Below, in pieces: positions 53,021-62,715 of a stretch of 64,000 nucleotides of DNA; position 1 is the first letter of the stretch, and every line of letters starts with the position of its first letter. Location: the NCBI RefSeq assembly GCF_001425825.1, contig NZ_LMDM01000047.1, positions 49,862 through 113,861 on the forward strand, given 5' to 3'. The position numbers and the translations under genes were made by a program. The stretch is from Rhizobacter sp. Root1238. Lineage in GTDB: Bacteria > Pseudomonadota > Gammaproteobacteria > Burkholderiales > Burkholderiaceae_C. Under the pieces are notes generated by a model. It worked only from the letters and a program-made list of their open reading frames with translations, made no database searches and was not told the DNA's origin.

Positions 53021-54394
53021 TCATGTGGCCGTCAGCGTGAAACCGAAGGTGTTGCGCCCGGCCTGCGAGCGCGCGAACACCGAGCCGCGGTGCATCAGCG
53101 CGATCGCCTTGACGATCGCCAGGCCCAGCCCATGGTTGCCGCCCGGGTTGCGGCGCGCGCTGTCGACGCGGTAGAAGCGGTCGAACAGGTGCGTCAGGTG
53201 CTGGTCGTCGATCGGGCCGCCGGGGTTGCTGACGGCCACGCGGATCTGCTCGGGGGCGTCGAGCAGGCGCCCGACCTCGACGACGATCTCGTCGCCCGGC
53301 GTCGAATGCTCGATCGCGTTCTGCAGCAGGTTGCCGAGCGCGCGCCGCAGCAGCGCCGTCTCGACGCAGCCGCGCTCGTCGCCCTGCACGCGGATGCGCA
53401 CGCCGCGTTCGTCGAGCAGTGCGTCGAGGTAGTCGGCCACCTTGTGCACCTCGTCGGCGATCGAGGTGTCGGCATGGCGCGACGCGGCCGCGCCCTGGTC
53501 GGCGCGCGCAAGGAACAGCATGTCGTTGACGATGCCCTTCAGCCGTTCCATCTCCTCCAGGTTGGAGCGCAGCACGTCCTCCAGCTCGTCGGCGCTGCGC
53601 TCGCGCGTCAGCATCACCTGCGTCTGGCCGATCAGGTTGGTGAGCGGCGTGCGCAGCTCGTGCGCCACGTCGGCGTTGAAGGCCTCCAGCTGCTGGTAGG
53701 CGGCCTGCAGCCGCGCCAGCGCGCCGTTGAACGACGCGGTCAGGTTGTCCAGCTCGGCCGGCATCGGCTGCAGCACCAGCCGCTGCTCCTGGTGGTTCGG
53801 GTCGAGCGCCTGCGCTTGCCGGCTCAGCCGGTCCAGCGGGCGCAGCCCGACGCGGGCGATGACGTAGCCAAGGCAGCCCACCGCCAGCACGCCGGCCAGG
53901 CCCAGCCCGATCAGCGCGAAGCGGAAGTCCTCCAGCGTCTGCAGGAAGCGCAGCGGGTCCTTGACCAGCACCAGCGTCACCGCGGGGCGGTCGCCGTCGG
54001 CCGGCAGGTGGCGGGACCAGGTCAGCAGCTTGCATGGGTGGCCGGGCTCGACCAGTTCGCCGTAGCCGCCGGCCATCGCCAGCGCCTCGATGTCGGCACG
54101 GCGCGGGCCGTAGCGGAAGGTCGGCACGTCGCTGACGACCCACAGCCGCACGTCGCTGCGCTCCATCTCGAGGGTGTTGAACTTCGGCGTGAGCCACAGC
54201 CGCCACTGCGATTCGTCCTGCACGCGCTGCACGATGGATTCGGCCCAGCCGGCGCGCAGCCGCATCTCGCCGCGCACCTGCTCCATCATCCCGCCGTTGA
54301 GCATGCGGTACAGCGCCCAGCCGCCGACCAGGAACACCACCGCGGCGCAGCCCGCGAACATCAGCGTGAGCCGCATCGACAGCCGGCGCGTCAC
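53021..54394 (-). CDS. Heavy-metal-type sensor histidine kinase (CusS-like)
   Basis: 457-residue membrane kinase. TM1 about 8-30, periplasmic domain about 31-158, TM2 about 160-182, HAMP, HisKA with H245 (ADVAHELRTPL), HATPase with GNLLQNAIEH and NHGLGLAIVKAI. The gene starts GTG, overlapping the regulator stop by 4 bases (GTGA). It resembles the CusS family; the signal could be copper, silver or another metal. Confidence 0.92.
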   Translation of the reverse strand: MTRRLSMRLTLMFAGCAAVVFLVGGWALYRMLNGGMMEQVRGEMRLRAGWAESIVQRVQDESQWRLWLTPKFNTLEMERSDVRLWVVSDVPTFRYGPRRADIEALAMAGGYGELVEPGHPCKLLTWSRHLPADGDRPAVTLVLVKDPLRFLQTLEDFRFALIGLGLAGVLAVGCLGYVIARVGLRPLDRLSRQAQALDPNHQEQRLVLQPMPAELDNLTASFNGALARLQAAYQQLEAFNADVAHELRTPLTNLIGQTQVMLTRERSADELEDVLRSNLEEMERLKGIVNDMLFLARADQGAAASRHADTSIADEVHKVADYLDALLDERGVRIRVQGDERGCVETALLRRALGNLLQNAIEHSTPGDEIVVEVGRLLDAPEQIRVAVSNPGGPIDDQHLTHLFDRFYRVDSARRNPGGNHGLGLAIVKAIALMHRGSVFARSQAGRNTFGFTLTAT

Positions 54395-55077
54395 GGCGAG
54401 GCCTCCGCGTCGCGCGCCTCGAGCACGTAGCCCATGCCGCGCATCGTGTGCAGCAGCTTGACCGGGTAGGGGCCGTCGAGCTTGGCGCGCAGCCGCTTCA
54501 CCGCGACCTCGACGACGTTGGTGTTGCTGTCGAAGTGGATGTCCCACACCAGCTCGGAGATCTCGGTGCGCGACAGCACCTGGCCCGGCCGGCGCGCGAG
54601 CGTGGTCAGCAGCGAGAACTCCTTGGCGGTCAGGTCGATGCGGTCGCCGCCGCGCTGCACCTTGCGGCCCAGCAGGTCGAGCACCATGTCGCCGATCGTG
54701 ATCGTGGTCGGCTCCTGTTGGCGGCTGCGGCGCGACAGCGCATGCAGCCGCGCGCTGAGTTCGAGGAACGAGAACGGCTTGACCAGGTAGTCGTCGGCGC
54801 CGTCCTGCAGGCCGCGCACCCGGTCTTCGATGCCGTCGCGCGCGGTCAGCATGATGATCGCCACCTGCTTCACGCGGCGCACGTCGCGCAGGATCTCGAA
54901 GCCGTCGATGCCGGGCAGCATCGCGTCGAGCACGATCACGTCGTGCCGGCCTTCGAGCGCCGCATGGCGGCCGTCGATGCCGTTGTGCTCGACGTCGACG
55001 ACGTGGCCCTGCTCGGTCAGCCCGCGGCGCAGGTAGTCGGCCGTTTTCGGTTCGTCTTCGATGATCAGGACGCGCAT
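54391..55077 (-). CDS. Heavy-metal-type response regulator (CusR-like)
   Basis: 228-residue OmpR-type regulator: receiver with D51 (VIVLDAMLPGIDGFE) and winged helix with LTAKEFSLLTTLARRPGQVLSRTEI, typical of CusR/CopR. Start at 55077. A near-perfect CusR-type palindrome 44 bases upstream suggests autoregulation. Confidence 0.93.
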   Translation of the reverse strand: MRVLIIEDEPKTADYLRRGLTEQGHVVDVEHNGIDGRHAALEGRHDVIVLDAMLPGIDGFEILRDVRRVKQVAIIMLTARDGIEDRVRGLQDGADDYLVKPFSFLELSARLHALSRRSRQQEPTTITIGDMVLDLLGRKVQRGGDRIDLTAKEFSLLTTLARRPGQVLSRTEISELVWDIHFDSNTNVVEVAVKRLRAKLDGPYPVKLLHTMRGMGYVLEARDAEASP

Positions 55078-55120
55078 TCCCGGGAGTTTAGTGACGCTGC
55101 CCGGGCCGGCGGCTGTCATG

Positions 55121-55210: not shown

Positions 55211-56395
55211 TCAGGGCGCGGCGAACGTGACCTGCGTCGCGACGATCCGCGTGCCGTCGAGCGACGGCAGGCCGCTCACCGTGGCGAGCCGGCCGTTCGC
55301 CAGGTCGGCGGCCGCCCCACCGCTGAACGCGGTGCCGTCGTCGAACACCACCGGCGTGTTGCGGATGCGGAAGCTGCGCGTCACCGCGTCGAGCTCCTGC
55401 ACCGCGCCGACCAGCGCGAAGCTGGCGATCGCCGGCACGCTGTCGTCGTGCACGATCACCCGCGCCGCCACCAGCGTGCCGGCCAGCGTGCTGCCCAGCA
55501 CGCCGACGCGCGCGCCCAGCACGACCTTGGCCTCGTCGCCGTCGAAGTGCGCGGTGACGGCGTCCACCGCGATGCCGTTCACCTTGAAGCTGCGCGAACT
55601 GAGGATCTCGGTCACCGTGCCCTCGACCCGCGCCACCGGATGGTCGCCGAGCATCAGGTCGGCGGTGCGCACCGAGGTGGCGGCGAGCTGGCCGCTCTCG
55701 GCGAGCAGCCGCACGCTGAGGAAGTCGCCGATGTCAACCGGCGGCACCGCGCTGCCGGCCACGCCGCCGACGCCGATCACCTCGCTGCCCAGCGTCAGGC
55801 TGGGTGCCTGCGGGTCGCGCGCCGCGACCACGCCGCGGATCTTGAAGAACGTCGCATCGGGCAGCTGCTCGATCCGCGTCGCGGCGTACTGGCGCGTCAG
55901 CGGGTCGTACTGCGAATACACCTGCACCGTCATGCCCGGCACCAGCGCGCTGAAGCCGCCGGTCAGGCTGCCGTCGAACAGCGTGCGCGCGCCGACGATC
56001 ACCGTCTGGCCGAGCACGGTGAAGCTGCCGGCGGCGGCGTCCACCGCGCCGACCGGCCCGACCAGGTCGCTGACGACGCGGATCACCTGTGCGGTGGAGG
56101 TGGCCTGCGCGGCACGGGTGTCGAGCGTGCCGCCCTCGACGATCACCGTCATGCCGAGCTTCAGCTGGTCTTTCGTCAGCAGCGCGCCCTGTTCGTCGCG
56201 GATCTCGGCACTGTCGTCGTCGAAGCGCACGTCGTTGACGAAGATCGAGCCGAGCCCGCTGATCGGGCCGGACGCGATGATGCCGGTGCCGCCGCTGTCG
56301 ACACCGCCGCCGCAGCCGGTCAGGTGGGTGATCAGCAGCGCGGCGGCCAGGAGCCCTGCGGTCAGGCGGCGGCGGGTCGGTAAGCGGGTGTTCAC
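55211..56395 (-). CDS. DUF5666 lipoprotein
   Basis: 394-residue lipoprotein with lipobox THLTGCGGG and several repeats of a beta-barrel-like OB module (e.g. VEGTVTEILSSRSFKVNGI, VRGVVAARDPQ-type segments), as in DUF5666. The start is GTG, overlapping the DUF6502 stop by 4 bases. Envelope role unknown. Probably regulated by the upstream DUF6502 protein. Confidence 0.85.
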   Translation of the reverse strand: MNTRLPTRRRLTAGLLAAALLITHLTGCGGGVDSGGTGIIASGPISGLGSIFVNDVRFDDDSAEIRDEQGALLTKDQLKLGMTVIVEGGTLDTRAAQATSTAQVIRVVSDLVGPVGAVDAAAGSFTVLGQTVIVGARTLFDGSLTGGFSALVPGMTVQVYSQYDPLTRQYAATRIEQLPDATFFKIRGVVAARDPQAPSLTLGSEVIGVGGVAGSAVPPVDIGDFLSVRLLAESGQLAATSVRTADLMLGDHPVARVEGTVTEILSSRSFKVNGIAVDAVTAHFDGDEAKVVLGARVGVLGSTLAGTLVAARVIVHDDSVPAIASFALVGAVQELDAVTRSFRIRNTPVVFDDGTAFSGGAAADLANGRLATVSGLPSLDGTRIVATQVTFAAP

Positions 56396-57264
56396 GATGG
56401 GTCGGGCTCGTCGGGTGAAGAGGGTGCCGCCGCCGCGGGCGCTTCGGCATGGAAGGTGTACAGGCCGATGCGCACGCGGCGCGGCGGCGGGTCGCCGGCC
56501 TGGTGCGCGCGCTCGTCGGCGTCGATCATCTTGGTGAGCCGCGGCACCAGCGCGGCCATCAACCCGCGCCATTGCTCGGTGACCAGCCCGCGCAGCTGCG
56601 CGACCGACTCGGCCGACAGGCCGTCGGCGAACACCGCCTGCTCGAAGTGCGGCGGCTTCTCGCCGCTGCTGCCGGCCGCCAGGTTGGCCACCGCGGCCGA
56701 CAGGTGGTCGCCGACGTTGTGGCCGACGAAACCGAGCAGCCGCGACTGGTCGGCGCTGGGCACGAAGGAATCGCGCTCCAGCGTCACGGTGTCGGTCACC
56801 GGGTCGAAGCTGGCGAGACCGAGCCGGCACAGCTCTTCGAGCAGGCTGCGCGGGTGCACGTCGCGCGTCACCGAGCGCGCCAGTTCCTCGAAGCTCTGCG
56901 CCTTGCCCTGGCGCGGCAGCGCCTTCGGGTGGCCGTCCTTGTCCTGCAGGCGCCGGTTGCCCATCCACTTGGTGAACACCTGCGTGGCCGGCGAACTGCG
57001 CGCCGGCGCCTCGGCCGGCGGCGTGTGCGTGATGCGCGTCACCTCGCGGCGCGTCAGGCCGGTGGTGGTGCTGATGCGGCTGACGTCGCGGCTCGCCTGC
57101 GCGCCCGAATGCGCCTCGCGTGCCGCCGCGACCAGCGCGCGCTTCATCGCCTCGGCCAGCAGCGGGAAGCCATGGCCGCGGTCGAGGCACAGCTGCGCCA
57201 GCGGCAGCAGCAGGCGCTCGAGCGCCTGCTGGAAGGCGGCTTCGGTATCGTCGGGTGTTGTCAT
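56392..57264 (-). CDS. DUF6502 family protein, probable DNA-binding regulator
   Basis: 290-residue cytoplasmic protein of DUF6502. Residues about 46-65 (DVSRISTTTGLTRREVTRI) look like a helix-turn-helix, and the following FTKWMGNRRLQDKDG-FEELARSV resembles a winged-helix extension. It heads the pair with the DUF5666 lipoprotein. Palindromes in its promoter region are shared with the divergent DUF4397 gene. The regulatory role is an inference. Confidence 0.8.
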   Translation of the reverse strand: MTTPDDTEAAFQQALERLLLPLAQLCLDRGHGFPLLAEAMKRALVAAAREAHSGAQASRDVSRISTTTGLTRREVTRITHTPPAEAPARSSPATQVFTKWMGNRRLQDKDGHPKALPRQGKAQSFEELARSVTRDVHPRSLLEELCRLGLASFDPVTDTVTLERDSFVPSADQSRLLGFVGHNVGDHLSAAVANLAAGSSGEKPPHFEQAVFADGLSAESVAQLRGLVTEQWRGLMAALVPRLTKMIDADERAHQAGDPPPRRVRIGLYTFHAEAPAAAAPSSPDEPDPS

Positions 57265-57270
57265 GTTTTC

Positions 57271-57289
57271 AATGTGCAACATGCACATT
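57271..57289. promoter_or_regulatory. Palindrome AATGTGCA-N3-TGCACATT, copy 1
   Basis: Perfect 8-bp arms with spacer ACA, 7 bases upstream of the DUF6502 start codon on the minus strand. Occupancy would block its translation or transcription start. Confidence 0.7.
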
Positions 57290-57352
57290 TGATCACGCTT
57301 TTGCAATCCCCGATTTCCCGGGGCTTGTCACCGTGTGTCATGGAATCTACAG

Positions 57353-57375
57353 TGAATGTGCAAGTTGCACATTCA
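57353..57375. promoter_or_regulatory. Palindrome TGAATGTGCA-N3-TGCACATTCA, copy 2
   Basis: Perfect 10-bp arms (57353-57362, 57366-57375) with spacer AGT and the same core as copy 1, 23 bases upstream of the DUF4397 start. The centres of the two copies are 84 bases apart, eight helical turns. Confidence 0.75.
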
Positions 57376-57398
57376 TGAAATCCACTGGAAACGCTTCG

Positions 57399-58688
57399 AT
57401 GAACAAGTTCTTCACCCGCCGGATCCTGGTTGCGATGCTGGCGGCGGCCGCCGTGCTGCCCGGCTGCGGCGGCGGCTCGGACGACGGCGGCGGCTCGCCC
57501 GGCCGCGTGCGGCTGGTCAACGCGACCACCGACTACACGGCGCTCGACTTCTACGCCAACGACGTGCTGCAGACGAAAGAGACCGCGTCGTTCGCGGTCG
57601 GCGCCTATTCGGAGATCGGCTCGGGCACGGTCGCGATGACGCTGAAGCGCAGCGGCTCCACGGCCGCGGCGGCCAGCGTGAGCCGCACCGTGGCGAGCGA
57701 CGGCTACCACACGCTGGTGGCCTACAGCACCGAGACCTCGCTGCGCGCGATGTACATGAACGACGGCGAAGCGGCGCCGACGGCCGGCCAGGCGAAGCTG
57801 CGGGTGATGAACGGCGCGGTCGAGGCCGGCGCGCTCGACGTCTACGTGTTCCCGGTCGATGCCGCATTGGCCGACCAGAACCCGGGGTTCGGCATCGCCG
57901 TCGACACGCTGAGTGCGTACAAGGAGTTCGTGAAGGGCGCGTGGCGCGTCGTCGCGACCGGCGCCGGCAACAAGGCCGACGTGCGGCTGGACCTGCCGTC
58001 GGTGACGCTGGCCGACCAGCAGATCGCGACGCTGGTGCTGACGGCCACACCCGGCGGCGTGCTGGTGCACGGGCTGGTGCTGAACCAGCGCGCCGACGTG
58101 GTCGCGCAGAAGAACCCGTCGGCCCGCGTGCGCGTGGTGGCCGGCACGACGGCCAGCGGTGCGGTGTCGGTGAAGGCGAACGGCATCACGTTGTCGAACG
58201 GCATCGCGTCGCCGGCGATCGTGCCCTATGCGATGGTGCCGGCCGGTGCGGTGACCGGCGAACTGCGGGTGAACGGCGGCGCCGCCCTCGCGCTGCCGGC
58301 CTTCACCGCGCCGCCCGGCGCCGACGTGACGCTGCTGGTGCTGGGCACGCCGGCCGCGCCGACCGCCTTCGTGCTGCAGGACAACAACAAGCCGGCCGCC
58401 GCCACCAGCGCGAAGGTGAGGCTGGTGCACGGCGTCAACGGGCTGGCCGGCAACGTGACGCTGACGGCCGACTACGGCCTGGTCGCCAGCGACATCCCGT
58501 TCGGCCAGGCCTCGGTCGGCGCGAGCCTGGTGGTCGGCAACTCGATCCGGCTGGAGGCGACCTCGCCGGCCGCGGTGTCCCGGCTGTACCTGAACGGCGA
58601 GGCCAACCTGCAGGCGACCAAGGTCTACACGGTGTTCATGCTCGGCGACGCCGCGACGCCGCTCGGCACGCTGGTGCGCGACCGCTGA
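57399..58688 (+). CDS. DUF4397 lipoprotein
   Basis: 429-residue lipoprotein with lipobox AVLPGCGGG. Two DUF4397-type beta repeats are seen (starting VRLVNATTDYTALDFYAND and VRLVHGVNGLAGNVTLTAD). Surface or periplasmic role unknown. The ATG at 57399 is preferred; an in-frame ATG at 57375 overlaps the palindrome. It is divergent from DUF6502-DUF5666. Confidence 0.82.
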   Translation: MNKFFTRRILVAMLAAAAVLPGCGGGSDDGGGSPGRVRLVNATTDYTALDFYANDVLQTKETASFAVGAYSEIGSGTVAMTLKRSGSTAAAASVSRTVASDGYHTLVAYSTETSLRAMYMNDGEAAPTAGQAKLRVMNGAVEAGALDVYVFPVDAALADQNPGFGIAVDTLSAYKEFVKGAWRVVATGAGNKADVRLDLPSVTLADQQIATLVLTATPGGVLVHGLVLNQRADVVAQKNPSARVRVVAGTTASGAVSVKANGITLSNGIASPAIVPYAMVPAGAVTGELRVNGGAALALPAFTAPPGADVTLLVLGTPAAPTAFVLQDNNKPAAATSAKVRLVHGVNGLAGNVTLTADYGLVASDIPFGQASVGASLVVGNSIRLEATSPAAVSRLYLNGEANLQATKVYTVFMLGDAATPLGTLVRDR

Positions 58689-58874
58689 TGCCGGCTGTCG
58701 CTGTCCGGTGACAGGCAAAAAGTCCTGGCGCGACAAGGACTTGGCGAGGCTGCTCCGGACCGCTGTCGCTGCGCGGCGACAAAACGACCGGTCCGGAGCT
58801 CTGTTTTGGCGTCAGATACGGAGAAACCCTCCGTTACGCGTGGCAAGTCGTTGATATCAAACGACTTTTCTTGC

Positions 58875-58890
58875 TGGCACAGGCGTTGCG
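58875..58890 (+). promoter_or_regulatory. Sigma-54-like promoter upstream of opgG
   Basis: TGGCAC-N5-TTGC with the GG/GC dinucleotides exactly 10 bases apart (58876-58877 and 58888-58889). This matches the -24/-12 consensus. The predicted start near 58901 leaves a ~48-base leader before the TTG start. The window's own GlrR-like protein is one candidate activator. Confidence 0.55.
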
Positions 58891-58948
58891 CTGTCATGGC
58901 ATCGCGGCCGTTTTCGACGGCCTTGTTTTGCCAGACAGGAACCACGTT

Positions 58949-60532
58949 TTGCTCGCTGCCCCCGGTCACACCGCGTTCACCGCTCCCGCCATTCGCCGAT
59001 CCGCGACATGGATCCGCGCGCTGGTTTCGCTCAGCCTCGCTGGCCTCGCCGGCCAGGCGATGGCATTCGGCTTCGACGACGTGGCCGAGCGCGCCCGCCA
59101 GATGGCCACCCGCGCTTACACGCCGGTCACGGTCAAGCTGCCCGACGAACTGAAGAACCTCGACTACGACCAGTACCGCGACATCCGCTTCAACCCGCAG
59201 AAGGCGCTGTGGCGGCGCGAGAACCTGCCGTTCGAGCTGGCCTTCTTCCACCTCGGCAAGTTCCAGACCCAGCCGGTGTCGATCAACGAGATCGCGCCCG
59301 ACGGCCGCGTCAACCACGTCGCCTTCGACCGCGCGGACTTCGACTACGGCAAGAACAAGCTGACGCAGAAGGGCTGGGGCGACCTCGGCTTCGCCGGCTT
59401 CCGCGTGCACTACGCGCTGAACAACCCGGCCTACAAGGACGAGCTGGTGGTTTTCCTCGGCGCGAGCTACCTGCGCGCGCTCGGCAAGGGCCAGCACTAC
59501 GGCATGTCGGCGCGCGGGTTGGGCATCGACACCGTCGGCGGCAGCGGGGAGGAGTTCCCGCGCTTCAGCGAATTCTGGATCGAGCGCCCGGCGCCGCAGG
59601 CGACCACGCTGGTGATCCACGCGCTGCTCGATTCGCCGCGCGCGACCGGCGCCTACCGCATCACGCTGCGTCCTGGCGAGGAAACCGCGATCGACGTGCA
59701 GGCCCGCCTGTTCCTGCGCGCCGGCGTCGCGACGCTGGGCCTCACGCCGCTGACCAGCATGTTCGCGCACGGCGAGAACCAGCCGAAGGCCGGAGACTTC
59801 CGCCCCGAGGTGCACGATTCCGACGGCCTGATGGTCGCGACCGGCGACGGCAAGGGCGGCGGCGAATGGCTGTGGCGCCCGCTGGTCAACCCGAACCGCA
59901 CGCTGGTGACCTCGTTCTCGATGGCCGAGCTGAAGGGCTTCGGGCTGATGCAGCGCGACCGCGCGTACACCAGCTACGAAGACACCGAGGCGCAGTACGA
60001 GCACCGCCCGAGCGTCTGGGTCACGCCGCAAGGCAGCTGGGGCCCGGGCCGCGTCGAACTGCTGCAGCTGCACACGCCGGACGAGACCGACGACAACGTC
60101 GTCGCCTACTGGGTGCCCGCCAGCGTGCCGGCACCCGGCCAGCCGATCGACTTCGCCTACCGCATGCAATGGCAGGGCGAGCGCCAGCAGCGCCCGCCGG
60201 CCGGCTGGACGGTGCAGACCCGCCGCGGCCACGGCTTCGTCGACCGCAGCAAGGCGCTCGACCCGCGCGAGGTGCAGTACGTCGTCGACTTCGACGGCCC
60301 GGCGCTGCGCGCGCTGCCCGCCGATGCGGCGGTGAAGGCCGTCGTCACCGCCGGCAGCAACGCCCAGATCGTCGAACGCAACGCCTATCGCAACCCCGCG
60401 ACCGGCACCTGGCGCATGACCGTGCGCGTCAACCGCCTCCAGCTCGCGCAACCCGCCGAGCTGCGAGCCTTTCTCCAAACCGGCGACAACGCCTTGACCG
60501 AAACATGGACCACGATCATTCAACCCGAGTGA
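58949..60532 (+). CDS. opgG: Glucan biosynthesis protein G
   Basis: Periplasmic protein for osmoregulated periplasmic glucan synthesis. The mature part begins FGFDDVAERARQMA after a signal peptide (WIRALVSLSLAGLAGQAMA), and the body contains YDQYRDIRF and the MFAHGENQP segment typical of OpgG. There is no in-frame ATG: TTG at 58949, 8 bases after AGGA, is used (527 residues), while a TTG at 58871 would lie inside the sigma-54-like promoter. Overlaps opgH by 4 bases. Confidence 0.93.
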   Translation: MLAAPGHTAFTAPAIRRSATWIRALVSLSLAGLAGQAMAFGFDDVAERARQMATRAYTPVTVKLPDELKNLDYDQYRDIRFNPQKALWRRENLPFELAFFHLGKFQTQPVSINEIAPDGRVNHVAFDRADFDYGKNKLTQKGWGDLGFAGFRVHYALNNPAYKDELVVFLGASYLRALGKGQHYGMSARGLGIDTVGGSGEEFPRFSEFWIERPAPQATTLVIHALLDSPRATGAYRITLRPGEETAIDVQARLFLRAGVATLGLTPLTSMFAHGENQPKAGDFRPEVHDSDGLMVATGDGKGGGEWLWRPLVNPNRTLVTSFSMAELKGFGLMQRDRAYTSYEDTEAQYEHRPSVWVTPQGSWGPGRVELLQLHTPDETDDNVVAYWVPASVPAPGQPIDFAYRMQWQGERQQRPPAGWTVQTRRGHGFVDRSKALDPREVQYVVDFDGPALRALPADAAVKAVVTAGSNAQIVERNAYRNPATGTWRMTVRVNRLQLAQPAELRAFLQTGDNALTETWTTIIQPE

Positions 60533-62715
60533 GCGCCGACCGATCCGCACCGGGCGCCAGCATGCCGCGCATGAACCGCGGCTCGATGGTGGCTCAGCCG
60601 TGGCGTGGTTTCACGCGCAGCCTGGGCGAGTTGCTCATCGGCACGCTGGCCGGCCTGGGCCGCCTGGTGCAGCCCGGCGCGCGCGGCGTGCCGGTCACGC
60701 CGGCCCCGGCGCCCGCCGCTTGGGAAAACGCCGCGAAGGCGCGCCGCCGCGTGCTGCTGGGACTGGTCGCGCTGTCGGCCGCCGGTGCCACCGCGCTGCT
60801 GGCCACCGTGCTGCCGCCGCATGACAGCGCCTGGCTGCGCAACCTGCAGATCGGCCTGTACGCGCTGCTGTTCGCGTGGGTGTCGGCCGGCTTCTTCACC
60901 GCGATGATGGGCTTCTGGGTGCTGTGGCGCGGCGATCGGCATGCGATGTCGGCATCGTCGGTCGGCAACGAGCCGATCCACAAGAGCGCCCGCACCGCGA
61001 TCATCATGCCGATCTGCAACGAGCAGGTGTCGACCGTGTTCGCCGGCCTGCGCGCCACCGTCGAATCGCTGGCGGCCACCGGCGCGTCCAGCCTGTTCGA
61101 CGTCTACGTGCTGTCGGACACCAACGACCCCGAAATCCGTGCCGCCGAGCTGGCCGCCTGGGCCGAGCTGCGCGCCGAGAGCGGGCTGGCCGAGCGCATC
61201 TACTACCGCTGGCGCACCATCCGCACCAAGCGCAAGGCCGGCAACGTCGCCGACTTCTGCCGCCGTTTCGGCAAGGACTACCGCTACATGGTGGTGCTGG
61301 ATGCCGACAGCGTGATGAGCGGCGACTGCCTGGTGAAGCTGGTGCGGCTGATGGAAGCCAACCCGAACGCCGGCATCCTGCAGACCGCGCCGCAAGCCTG
61401 CGGCCTGGACACCGTGCATGCGCGCTCGCAGCAGTTCGCGGGCCGCGTCGCGGGCCGGCTGTTCACCGCCGGCATGCAGTACTGGCAGCTGGGCGAATCG
61501 CACTACTGGGGCCACAACGCGATCATCCGCGTCGAGCCATTCATGAAGCATTGCGGCCTCGCGCCGCTGAAGGGCCGCGGCGGCCTGAGCGGCGAGATCC
61601 TGTCGCACGACTTCGTCGAAGCCGCGCTGATGCGCCGTGCCGGCTACCACGTGTGGCTGGTGCACGACCTGCACGGCAGCTACGAGCAACAGCCGCCCAA
61701 CCTGCTCGAAGAGCTGCAGCGCGACCGCCGCTGGTGCCAGGGCAATCTGCAGAACGCCCGCCTGATCGCCGAGCCCGGCCTGCACGGCGTGCACCGCGCG
61801 ATGCTGCTGACCGGCGCGCTGGCCTACCTGTCGGCCCCGCTGTGGCTGGCCTTCGTGCTGCTCGGCGCGGGGCTGTGGATGTTCGGCGGCCATCCGGTGT
61901 TCGGGTCGGCGCGCGAGCTGCCGGTCGAGATGGCGCTGCTGTGGCTGGCCACGGCGGTGATGCTGGCGATGCCGCGCGTGATGGGCGTGGCCGCGATCGT
62001 GATGACCGGGCAGCAGCGCCGCTATGGCGGTATCGCCGCGCTGATCAAGGGTGCCGTGCTGGAAGGCGGGCTCTCGGTGCTGCAGGCGCCGGTGCGGATG
62101 ATGGCGCACACGCTGTTCGTGGTGGTCGCGCTGACCGGGCTGAAGCTGGACTGGAAGTCGCCCCCGCGCGAAGCGAGCGACATCGGCTGGGCGGATGCGG
62201 CGCGCCGCTTCATGTTCATCAGCGGTGGCGTGGCGCTGCTGTCGGCGCTGGTGCTGTGGGTGCAGCCGCAAGCCACGCTGTGGCTGGCGCCGATGGGCCT
62301 GCCGCTGCTGCTGGCGGTGCCGCTGGTGGTGCTGACGAGCCGCTCCGGGCTGGGCCAGCGCCTGCTGGCCAACAAGCTGCTGCTGACGCCGGAAGAGCAT
62401 TCGGCTCCGACGGTGCTGCGCCGTGCATGGGCGCATGCGCGCCGCGCGGCGCCGATGCGCCAGTTCCGCGATGCATTGAACGACCCGTGGCTGTTCGACG
62501 TGGTGCGCAGTGCGATGGGTCCGCGCAACACCAGCTGGGGCAGCCGCGGCAAGGCGCGCCGCCTGCTGATGAAGGGCCTGCTGGCCCATCACGACACCGA
62601 GCGCCTGAGCAAGGCCGACCGGATGCGGCTGCTGAGCGAACCGCAGACGATCGTGCGGCTGCGCGATCAGCTGGCGGCCAATGCCAGCCTGGTGCGCACT
62701 GAACGCAGGGCGTGA
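60529..62715 (+). CDS. opgH: Glucan biosynthesis glucosyltransferase H
   Basis: 728-residue inner-membrane GT2 glucosyltransferase making the beta-glucan backbone. Two TM helices near 85-140, catalytic domain with MPICNE, VLDADS and the acceptor motif RRWCQGN (QxxRW-like), then several TM helices (about 425-610). The GTG start (GTGA overlap with opgG) is used; an ATG at 60562 is possible. It forms a translationally coupled pair with opgG. Confidence 0.95.
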   Translation: MSADRSAPGASMPRMNRGSMVAQPWRGFTRSLGELLIGTLAGLGRLVQPGARGVPVTPAPAPAAWENAAKARRRVLLGLVALSAAGATALLATVLPPHDSAWLRNLQIGLYALLFAWVSAGFFTAMMGFWVLWRGDRHAMSASSVGNEPIHKSARTAIIMPICNEQVSTVFAGLRATVESLAATGASSLFDVYVLSDTNDPEIRAAELAAWAELRAESGLAERIYYRWRTIRTKRKAGNVADFCRRFGKDYRYMVVLDADSVMSGDCLVKLVRLMEANPNAGILQTAPQACGLDTVHARSQQFAGRVAGRLFTAGMQYWQLGESHYWGHNAIIRVEPFMKHCGLAPLKGRGGLSGEILSHDFVEAALMRRAGYHVWLVHDLHGSYEQQPPNLLEELQRDRRWCQGNLQNARLIAEPGLHGVHRAMLLTGALAYLSAPLWLAFVLLGAGLWMFGGHPVFGSARELPVEMALLWLATAVMLAMPRVMGVAAIVMTGQQRRYGGIAALIKGAVLEGGLSVLQAPVRMMAHTLFVVVALTGLKLDWKSPPREASDIGWADAARRFMFISGGVALLSALVLWVQPQATLWLAPMGLPLLLAVPLVVLTSRSGLGQRLLANKLLLTPEEHSAPTVLRRAWAHARRAAPMRQFRDALNDPWLFDVVRSAMGPRNTSWGSRGKARRLLMKGLLAHHDTERLSKADRMRLLSEPQTIVRLRDQLAANASLVRTERRA

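Follow-up and report, generated by a model that had tools for sequence, protein, structure and literature searches.

The divergent promoter between the DUF6502 and DUF4397 genes of this Rhizobacter genome contained two copies of the palindrome AATGTGC-N5-GCACATT. Our analysis suggests, with a probability of about 0.8, that the DUF6502 protein is an autoregulator that binds this palindrome as its operator and controls the DUF6502-DUF5666 operon, whether negatively or positively. Repression was probably the direction of control, judging from the position of the sites in predicted promoters. We infer that DUF6502 is the binder from the co-occurrence of site and gene, from the covariation of the operator with the protein clade, and from the protein model. 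In the proposed mechanism, a DUF6502 dimer would bind AATGTGC-N5-GCACATT and thereby control its own operon. The features concerned were the following:

55211 to 56395, minus strand: DUF5666 lipoprotein gene (PF18914, E 1.8e-24), its start overlapping the DUF6502 stop (GTGA)
56392 to 57264, minus strand: gene of the DUF6502 protein, 290 aa (Pfam PF20112, E 1.4e-18; AlphaFold model), the proposed autoregulator
57271 to 57289, no strand assigned: putative operator O1, AATGTGCAACATGCACATT, of the form AATGTGC-N5-GCACATT, with 6 bases between it and the DUF6502 ATG downstream
57325 to 57353, plus strand: predicted sigma-70 promoter of DUF4397, TTGTCA at 57325-57330, 17-bp spacer, TACAGT at 57348-57353
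57353 to 57375, no strand assigned: putative operator O2, TGAATGTGCAAGTTGCACATTCA, immediately following the -10 box predicted for DUF4397
57399 to 58688, plus strand: DUF4397 lipoprotein gene (PF14344, E 8.4e-36; alternative start 57375), a candidate second, divergent target in the window clade

Two sites in a divergent promoter

The first-pass annotation had described two palindromes 84 bases apart, one beside each start codon, and both were found in place. Six bases lay between O1 and the DUF6502 ATG (57264, minus strand), and 25 between O2 and the likely DUF4397 ATG (57399); the alternative ATG at 57375 overlapped the outer edge of O2. The O2 core, AATGTGCAAGTTGCACATT, occupied 57355-57373 and extended to a palindrome with 11-bp arms (57353-57375), and the distance between the two operators was 84 bp from centre to centre. 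A search allowing up to three mismatches across the window (the whole analysed stretch of 64,000 nucleotides) returned just O1 and O2, while 100 shuffled versions contained 0.10 on average and at most 1. The exact pattern AATGTGC-N5-GCACATT occurred twice in the 6.52-Mb genome, both times at this divergent promoter. Three further places in the same genome with up to three mismatches were taken as chance.

The sole promoter-like match between 57200 and 57450 was TTGTCA-17-TACAGT, and the scan of this region found no such match for a promoter of DUF6502 itself. Among the three genomes of the window clade (the window genome, G010 and G004), the operator arms were conserved apart from one change, the five bases of the spacer varied, and both boxes of the DUF4397 promoter were unchanged. 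The 84-bp distance was identical in G010 and G004.

According to our model, the promoter would have been remodelled in the window clade, with O1 at the start codon of DUF6502 and the start region of the divergent DUF4397 promoter covered by O2. This placement may therefore put both transcription units under one regulator. Since the conserved distance corresponds to 8 helical turns, two DUF6502 dimers could cooperate. We propose that the divergent promoter is a local variant of a family-wide operator system.

Other features of the neighbourhood were also recorded. A perfect 24-bp palindrome, CAGCAGGCGCTCGAGCGCCTGCTG, was located inside the DUF6502 coding sequence at about codons 12-19 and was also found in G010 and G004. 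Periplasmic glucan genes were found on the DUF4397 side (window 58871-62715), namely an MdoG gene (PF04349, E 3e-191) and one for a family-2 glycosyltransferase, which may be its partner mdoH. Downstream of DUF5666 on the same strand (window 53021-55119) came the genes of a response regulator (Response_reg, Trans_reg_C) and of a histidine kinase with a HAMP domain.

The proposed operator at related loci

Loci were collected by PF20112/DUF6502 searches of genomes and from the best 80 of 209 named relatives (Rhizobacter, Caldimonas, Rubrivivax, Ramlibacter, Aquabacterium, Polaromonas, Rhodoferax, Albitalea, Zoogloea and others, including bins labelled Deltaproteobacteria and Geobacteraceae). Merging proteins with identical first 200 residues reduced 235 loci to 214 distinct proteins, of which 121 belonged to the DUF6502 subfamily of the window (window type, here S1) and 93 did not. 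Alignment A1 contained 77 of 81 loci including the window (L109, L130, L139 and L149 were excluded), and for alignment A3, 51 of the 55 loci selected were used together with the window. Outside the window clade, the S1 proteins in A1 were 39-55% identical to the window DUF6502.

The earlier proposal had been staked on the palindrome being present at other DUF6502 loci, and it was indeed found there. A site with at least 12 of the 14 window-pattern bases stood at the operon start of 96 of the 121 S1 loci, and 79 loci had at least 13 of 14. At the S1 loci there were 109 sites in 58 kb of operon starts and 6 in 1.15 Mb elsewhere, and only 0.08% of loci reached 12/14 when operon starts were shuffled. 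In operons that began with DUF5666, the site preceded that gene and was about 1.4 kb from DUF6502. Among the 25 S1 loci without a site of at least 12/14, some had the variants AATGGGC-N5-GCCCATT or AATGGGT (Aquabacterium and relatives), some had shorter arms (L083, L128), and several others showed none. A generic score, built after the motifs were known, placed 134 of 214 loci above the 99% background level.

The first-pass annotation had drawn the core of the palindrome slightly wider. Among relatives the conserved part was AATGTGC-N5-GCACATT, and the additional inner A/T pair of the wider core was less conserved (A 0.64, T 0.61). Base frequencies were taken over 83 sites, omitting 5 window-clade loci, and the promoter-box counts given below over 84 sites, omitting 3.

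The exact site was present in 29 of 299 genomes of the host family, compared with 1 for the reversed control. It occurred in 27 of the 52 genomes that had a DUF6502 match at E 1e-50 or better, in 0 of 67 with weaker matches alone, and in 2 of 180 in which no match was found; in one of these two it lay between what we take to be ATP synthase genes. Genome lists were transferred by hand, and a few DUF6502 matches may have been missed because at most 8 candidates were scored per genome. The Fisher p of 8e-22 (27/52 versus 2/247 genomes) overstates independence since the genomes are related, and neither loci nor genome counts are independent. DUF6502 matches were found in 119 of 299 genomes sampled from the host family, 76 of 274 from the class, and 15 of 299 from the phylum.

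Some loci carried paired palindromes. Four Ramlibacter loci (L183, L208, L218 and L237) had tandem operators 26-27 bp apart before DUF6502, with the same spacing in L084, and two loci (L146, L151) had two variant AAATGT-type palindromes 60 bp apart before the gene.

The position of the operator relative to promoter boxes bears on the direction of control. In the 83 aligned S1 sites outside the window clade, TTnA stood before the palindrome and TAnAnT after it. Of 84 sites, 53 had a -10-like box directly after the operator and 32 had a -35-like box, compared with 9 and 7 on the mirror side; both boxes, 17 bp apart, flanked the operator in 27, compared with 0 in the mirror arrangement. Outside S1, no conserved -10 flank was seen in 41 sites. 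A position between the two boxes is an occlusion position, as predicted from these sequences, so a DUF6502 protein bound there in the relatives should block RNA polymerase, resulting in negative autoregulation. The mark of an autoregulated repressor, a palindrome over its own -35/-10 region or start, was recognised here from consensus boxes rather than mapped start sites.

Activation from the same sites, for example by promoter remodelling of the MerR type, would leave the rest of the model in place and reverse its sign. MerR sites also lie between the -35 and -10 boxes, as the operator did in the 27 sites above. However, MerR-type promoters have a spacer of 19-20 bp, and the boxes around the aligned DUF6502 sites were 17 bp apart. 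Moreover, O2 in the window followed the -10 box, which is a repressor position. Activation was thus unlikely, and repression by DUF6502 was the preferred sign.

The DUF6502 protein and its putative operator types

The window protein matched PF20112 over residues 11-275 with 67.2 bits, compared with a curated cut-off of 27. It was therefore a member of this family of unknown function, as were the loci from the PF20112 searches. Pfam assigns PF20112 no function, and an operator and a role are proposed for it here. PF20112 was the only Pfam match at E up to 1, and the MarR, IclR and GntR models did not match; none of four proteins scored above the NCBIfam cut-offs. We found no paper naming DUF6502 or PF20112 in a full-text literature search with most subscription journals outside its scope. 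Motif strings and broader terms likewise returned nothing relevant within the same scope.

The AlphaFold model of DUF6502 was built from 77 aligned sequences (mean pLDDT 86, pTM 0.72). It had helices at 33-51, 57-68 and 72-80, from which we read a helix-turn-helix at about residues 57-80. These were followed by helices 92-102, 125-132 and 138-147 and strands 151-154 and 159-162, read as a winged helix at about residues 92-162, and by two long C-terminal helices (173-199 and 218-255). The first-pass annotation had also noticed a helix-turn-helix-like segment in DUF6502. Binding would most likely be by a homodimer through the helix-turn-helix or the winged-helix region.

Foldseek comparison of the model with the PDB found nothing at E 0.001 or better, and TM-scores were low. 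By title, 16 of the 20 top matches, all weak, were transcription regulators, and almost all of these belonged to winged-helix families, with best E-values of 0.59 for IclR, 0.74 for MarR and 0.79 for GntR. A PDB sequence search found no relative (best E 0.79). Neither search assigned DUF6502 to a known family. The likeness to MarR, IclR and GntR repressors consisted of the palindromic operator in the protein's own promoter and these weak structural matches; DUF6502 differed from them in having PF20112 as its sole Pfam match, no Foldseek E of 0.001 or below, and a conserved lipoprotein partner. CRP-type sites are TGTGA-N6-TCACA, and some DUF6502 loci had the similar AAATGTGA-N5-TCACATTT (L155, L290). 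However, the spacer of the DUF6502 operator was 5, and the window protein matched neither a CRP nor a cyclic-nucleotide domain.

Palindrome discovery that started from no motif recovered AAATGTGC-N5-GCACATTT from the 121 S1 loci. The four other clade groups gave TGGGA-N5 (41 loci), AAATGGGA-N5 (24), ATTTGGGA-N6 (7) and GTGGGA-N5 (21). TGGGA-type half-sites were thus found in all four non-S1 groups, and the N6 spacing in the group around the Pfam core. In all five groups the likelihood at the best spacing exceeded that of the shuffled set, for which fewer starts were used. Among 29 loci of genomes sharing only the class, ATTGGGA-N6-TCCCAAT was found with posterior 1.00 in 19 and 0.01 or less in the other 10. 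A phylum-wide sample of 12 loci, 9 of them from other classes, gave TGGGA-N5-TCCCA with posterior of at least 0.77 in 12/12. The shuffled controls for the class and phylum runs also had fewer starts than the real runs.

The innermost base of the half-site separated the subfamilies. It was C in both arms at 85 of 121 S1 loci and A in both arms at none, compared with 55 (A) and 3 (C) of the 93 non-S1 loci. Among 13 hand-listed genomes that encoded S1 and non-S1 paralogs, 8 had sites at or above the 95% background level for both paralogs, and in 7 of these 8 each paralog kept its own operator type (the S1 site of G101 was borderline); the exception was G208, with the non-S1 site TGGAC. The window genome was one of the 7, with TTTGGGA-N6-TCCCAAA just before its paralog at C23:490169. 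That pattern occurred once in the genome with up to two mismatches, a count that says little because the reversed control occurred 4 times. The simplest history, on a tree that was not formally rooted, would be an ancestral TGGGA operator that changed to TGTGC in the window branch.

The protein sequences varied in parallel. The putative recognition helix had the consensus NRREVTRL in S1 and HRKDVRRL in the TGGGA group. Of the 71 S1 proteins with TGTGC sites, 50 had T at window residue 76, and 39 of the 41 proteins in the TGGGA group had R, K or Q there. With an acidic residue 51, half-site position 5 was GG in 52 cases, GT in 6 and TT in 1; with a non-acidic residue it was TT in 86, GT in 17, GG in 12 and CG in 1. 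Within S1, all five proteins with an acidic residue 51 had G-type sites. A one-residue code linking acidic 51 to G at position 5 was considered, but sister proteins with A51 also had G (L099, L182, L192, L214). Since these sisters have G and the counts follow the tree, the tracking of operator type by residues 51 and 76 was considered a lead rather than a proven code.

A regulator encoded elsewhere might bind the sites at DUF6502-DUF5666 operons, leaving DUF6502 with some other task. This would accommodate the 25 close-match genomes without an exact site and the two that had a site without a DUF6502 match. We considered it less probable even than activation, because the operator letters followed the DUF6502 clade, also between paralogs in 7 of 8 genomes, the exact site was absent from all 67 genomes with distant DUF6502 matches alone, and the linked protein itself was modelled with a helix-turn-helix. 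That the palindromes are RNA hairpins of a leader attenuator or terminator, as the proximity of O1 to the DUF6502 start codon might suggest, was highly improbable, because in 53 of 84 sites of relatives they directly preceded a -10-like box and were therefore upstream of the transcript, base identity rather than pairing alone was conserved, and no terminator-like match was found in 57200-57450.

Target genes of the proposed regulator

DUF5666 was directly downstream of DUF6502 in 207 of 235 loci. In a neighbour survey of 140 loci, the largest cluster, at the DUF5666 position, covered 124 loci, and the next apart from DUF6502 covered 29. Control of DUF6502 and its lipoprotein partner, as first proposed, fits this conserved pair. 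Control of the divergent DUF4397 gene was plausible but confined in scope, since DUF4397 stood beside DUF6502 in 5 loci of three genomes, all of the window clade.

The lipobox cysteine of DUF5666 (Cys28) was invariant in 52 aligned proteins, and the predicted structure was all-beta (pLDDT 90) with tandem OB-like barrels. Single barrels resembled PilY2, CspA and CusF (Foldseek E 0.03 to 0.12); the OB-fold proteins PilY2 (TMt 0.65-0.73, E 0.03) and CusF (TMt 0.66, E 0.12) aligned with them. Unlike PilY2 and CusF, the window DUF5666 was a lipoprotein and had several consecutive barrels. Its sole match below 0.001 was to ribosomal protein S1, in a ribosomal-complex chain titled 'bS1 resolved' (E 7.9e-06, TM 0.14). 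Within the literature searched, DUF5666 was named in 4 papers, in two of them in a table row, DUF4382 in 1 and DUF4397 in 3.

Thirteen exact sites away from DUF6502 were examined, and 4 of them preceded relevant lipoprotein genes. Two stood before genes of DUF4382 lipoproteins (L312, L313) and one before a DUF5666 lipoprotein gene (L315); the fourth (L314) involved a DUF4382 protein that matched our own DUF5666 profile (E 3e-18) but not Pfam's DUF5666. Other sites preceded genes for a subtilase (L318), a thioredoxin-like protein (L321) and two secreted-looking proteins (L310, L311), and L309, L317, L319 and L320 had no convincing target. The remaining site (L316), at the end of a contig and next to a gene like that of DNA polymerase IV, may mark a cut-off DUF6502 operon, because a similar gene lay divergently upstream in 23 of 140 DUF6502 loci. 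The DUF6502 paralog of the window genome was followed by a gene for a DUF4382 lipoprotein. Since some off-locus sites and this paralog adjoined DUF5666 or DUF4382 genes, DUF6502 regulators seem to be tied to glycine-rich lipoproteins.

A second DUF6502 copy of the Pfam-core type, with one in-frame TAG, was found in the window genome (L324, C23:519367-527517) and at L017. It was matched from profile position 47 on, and the gene after it looked like that of the DUF4382 lipoprotein at L323.

More broadly, DUF6502 may be a phylum-wide regulator family with a readable code, in which operators changed from TGGGA-N5/6-TCCCA to TGTGC-N5-GCACA with residues 76 and 51 tracking the change. The dedicated targets of such a family would be glycine-rich surface lipoproteins (DUF5666, DUF4382, DUF4397), which could in turn signal the state of the envelope to it. 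We hold this wider view tentatively, at somewhat less than even odds. The DUF6502 proteins look like previously undescribed bacterial gene switches, and a set of proteins without an assigned function would thus become predicted transcription factors whose operators can be named and whose target is conserved. One regulon would give access to three domain families of lipoproteins (DUF5666, DUF4382 and DUF4397). The family would also offer a natural case of a change in operator specificity, with parallel paralogs in one cell.
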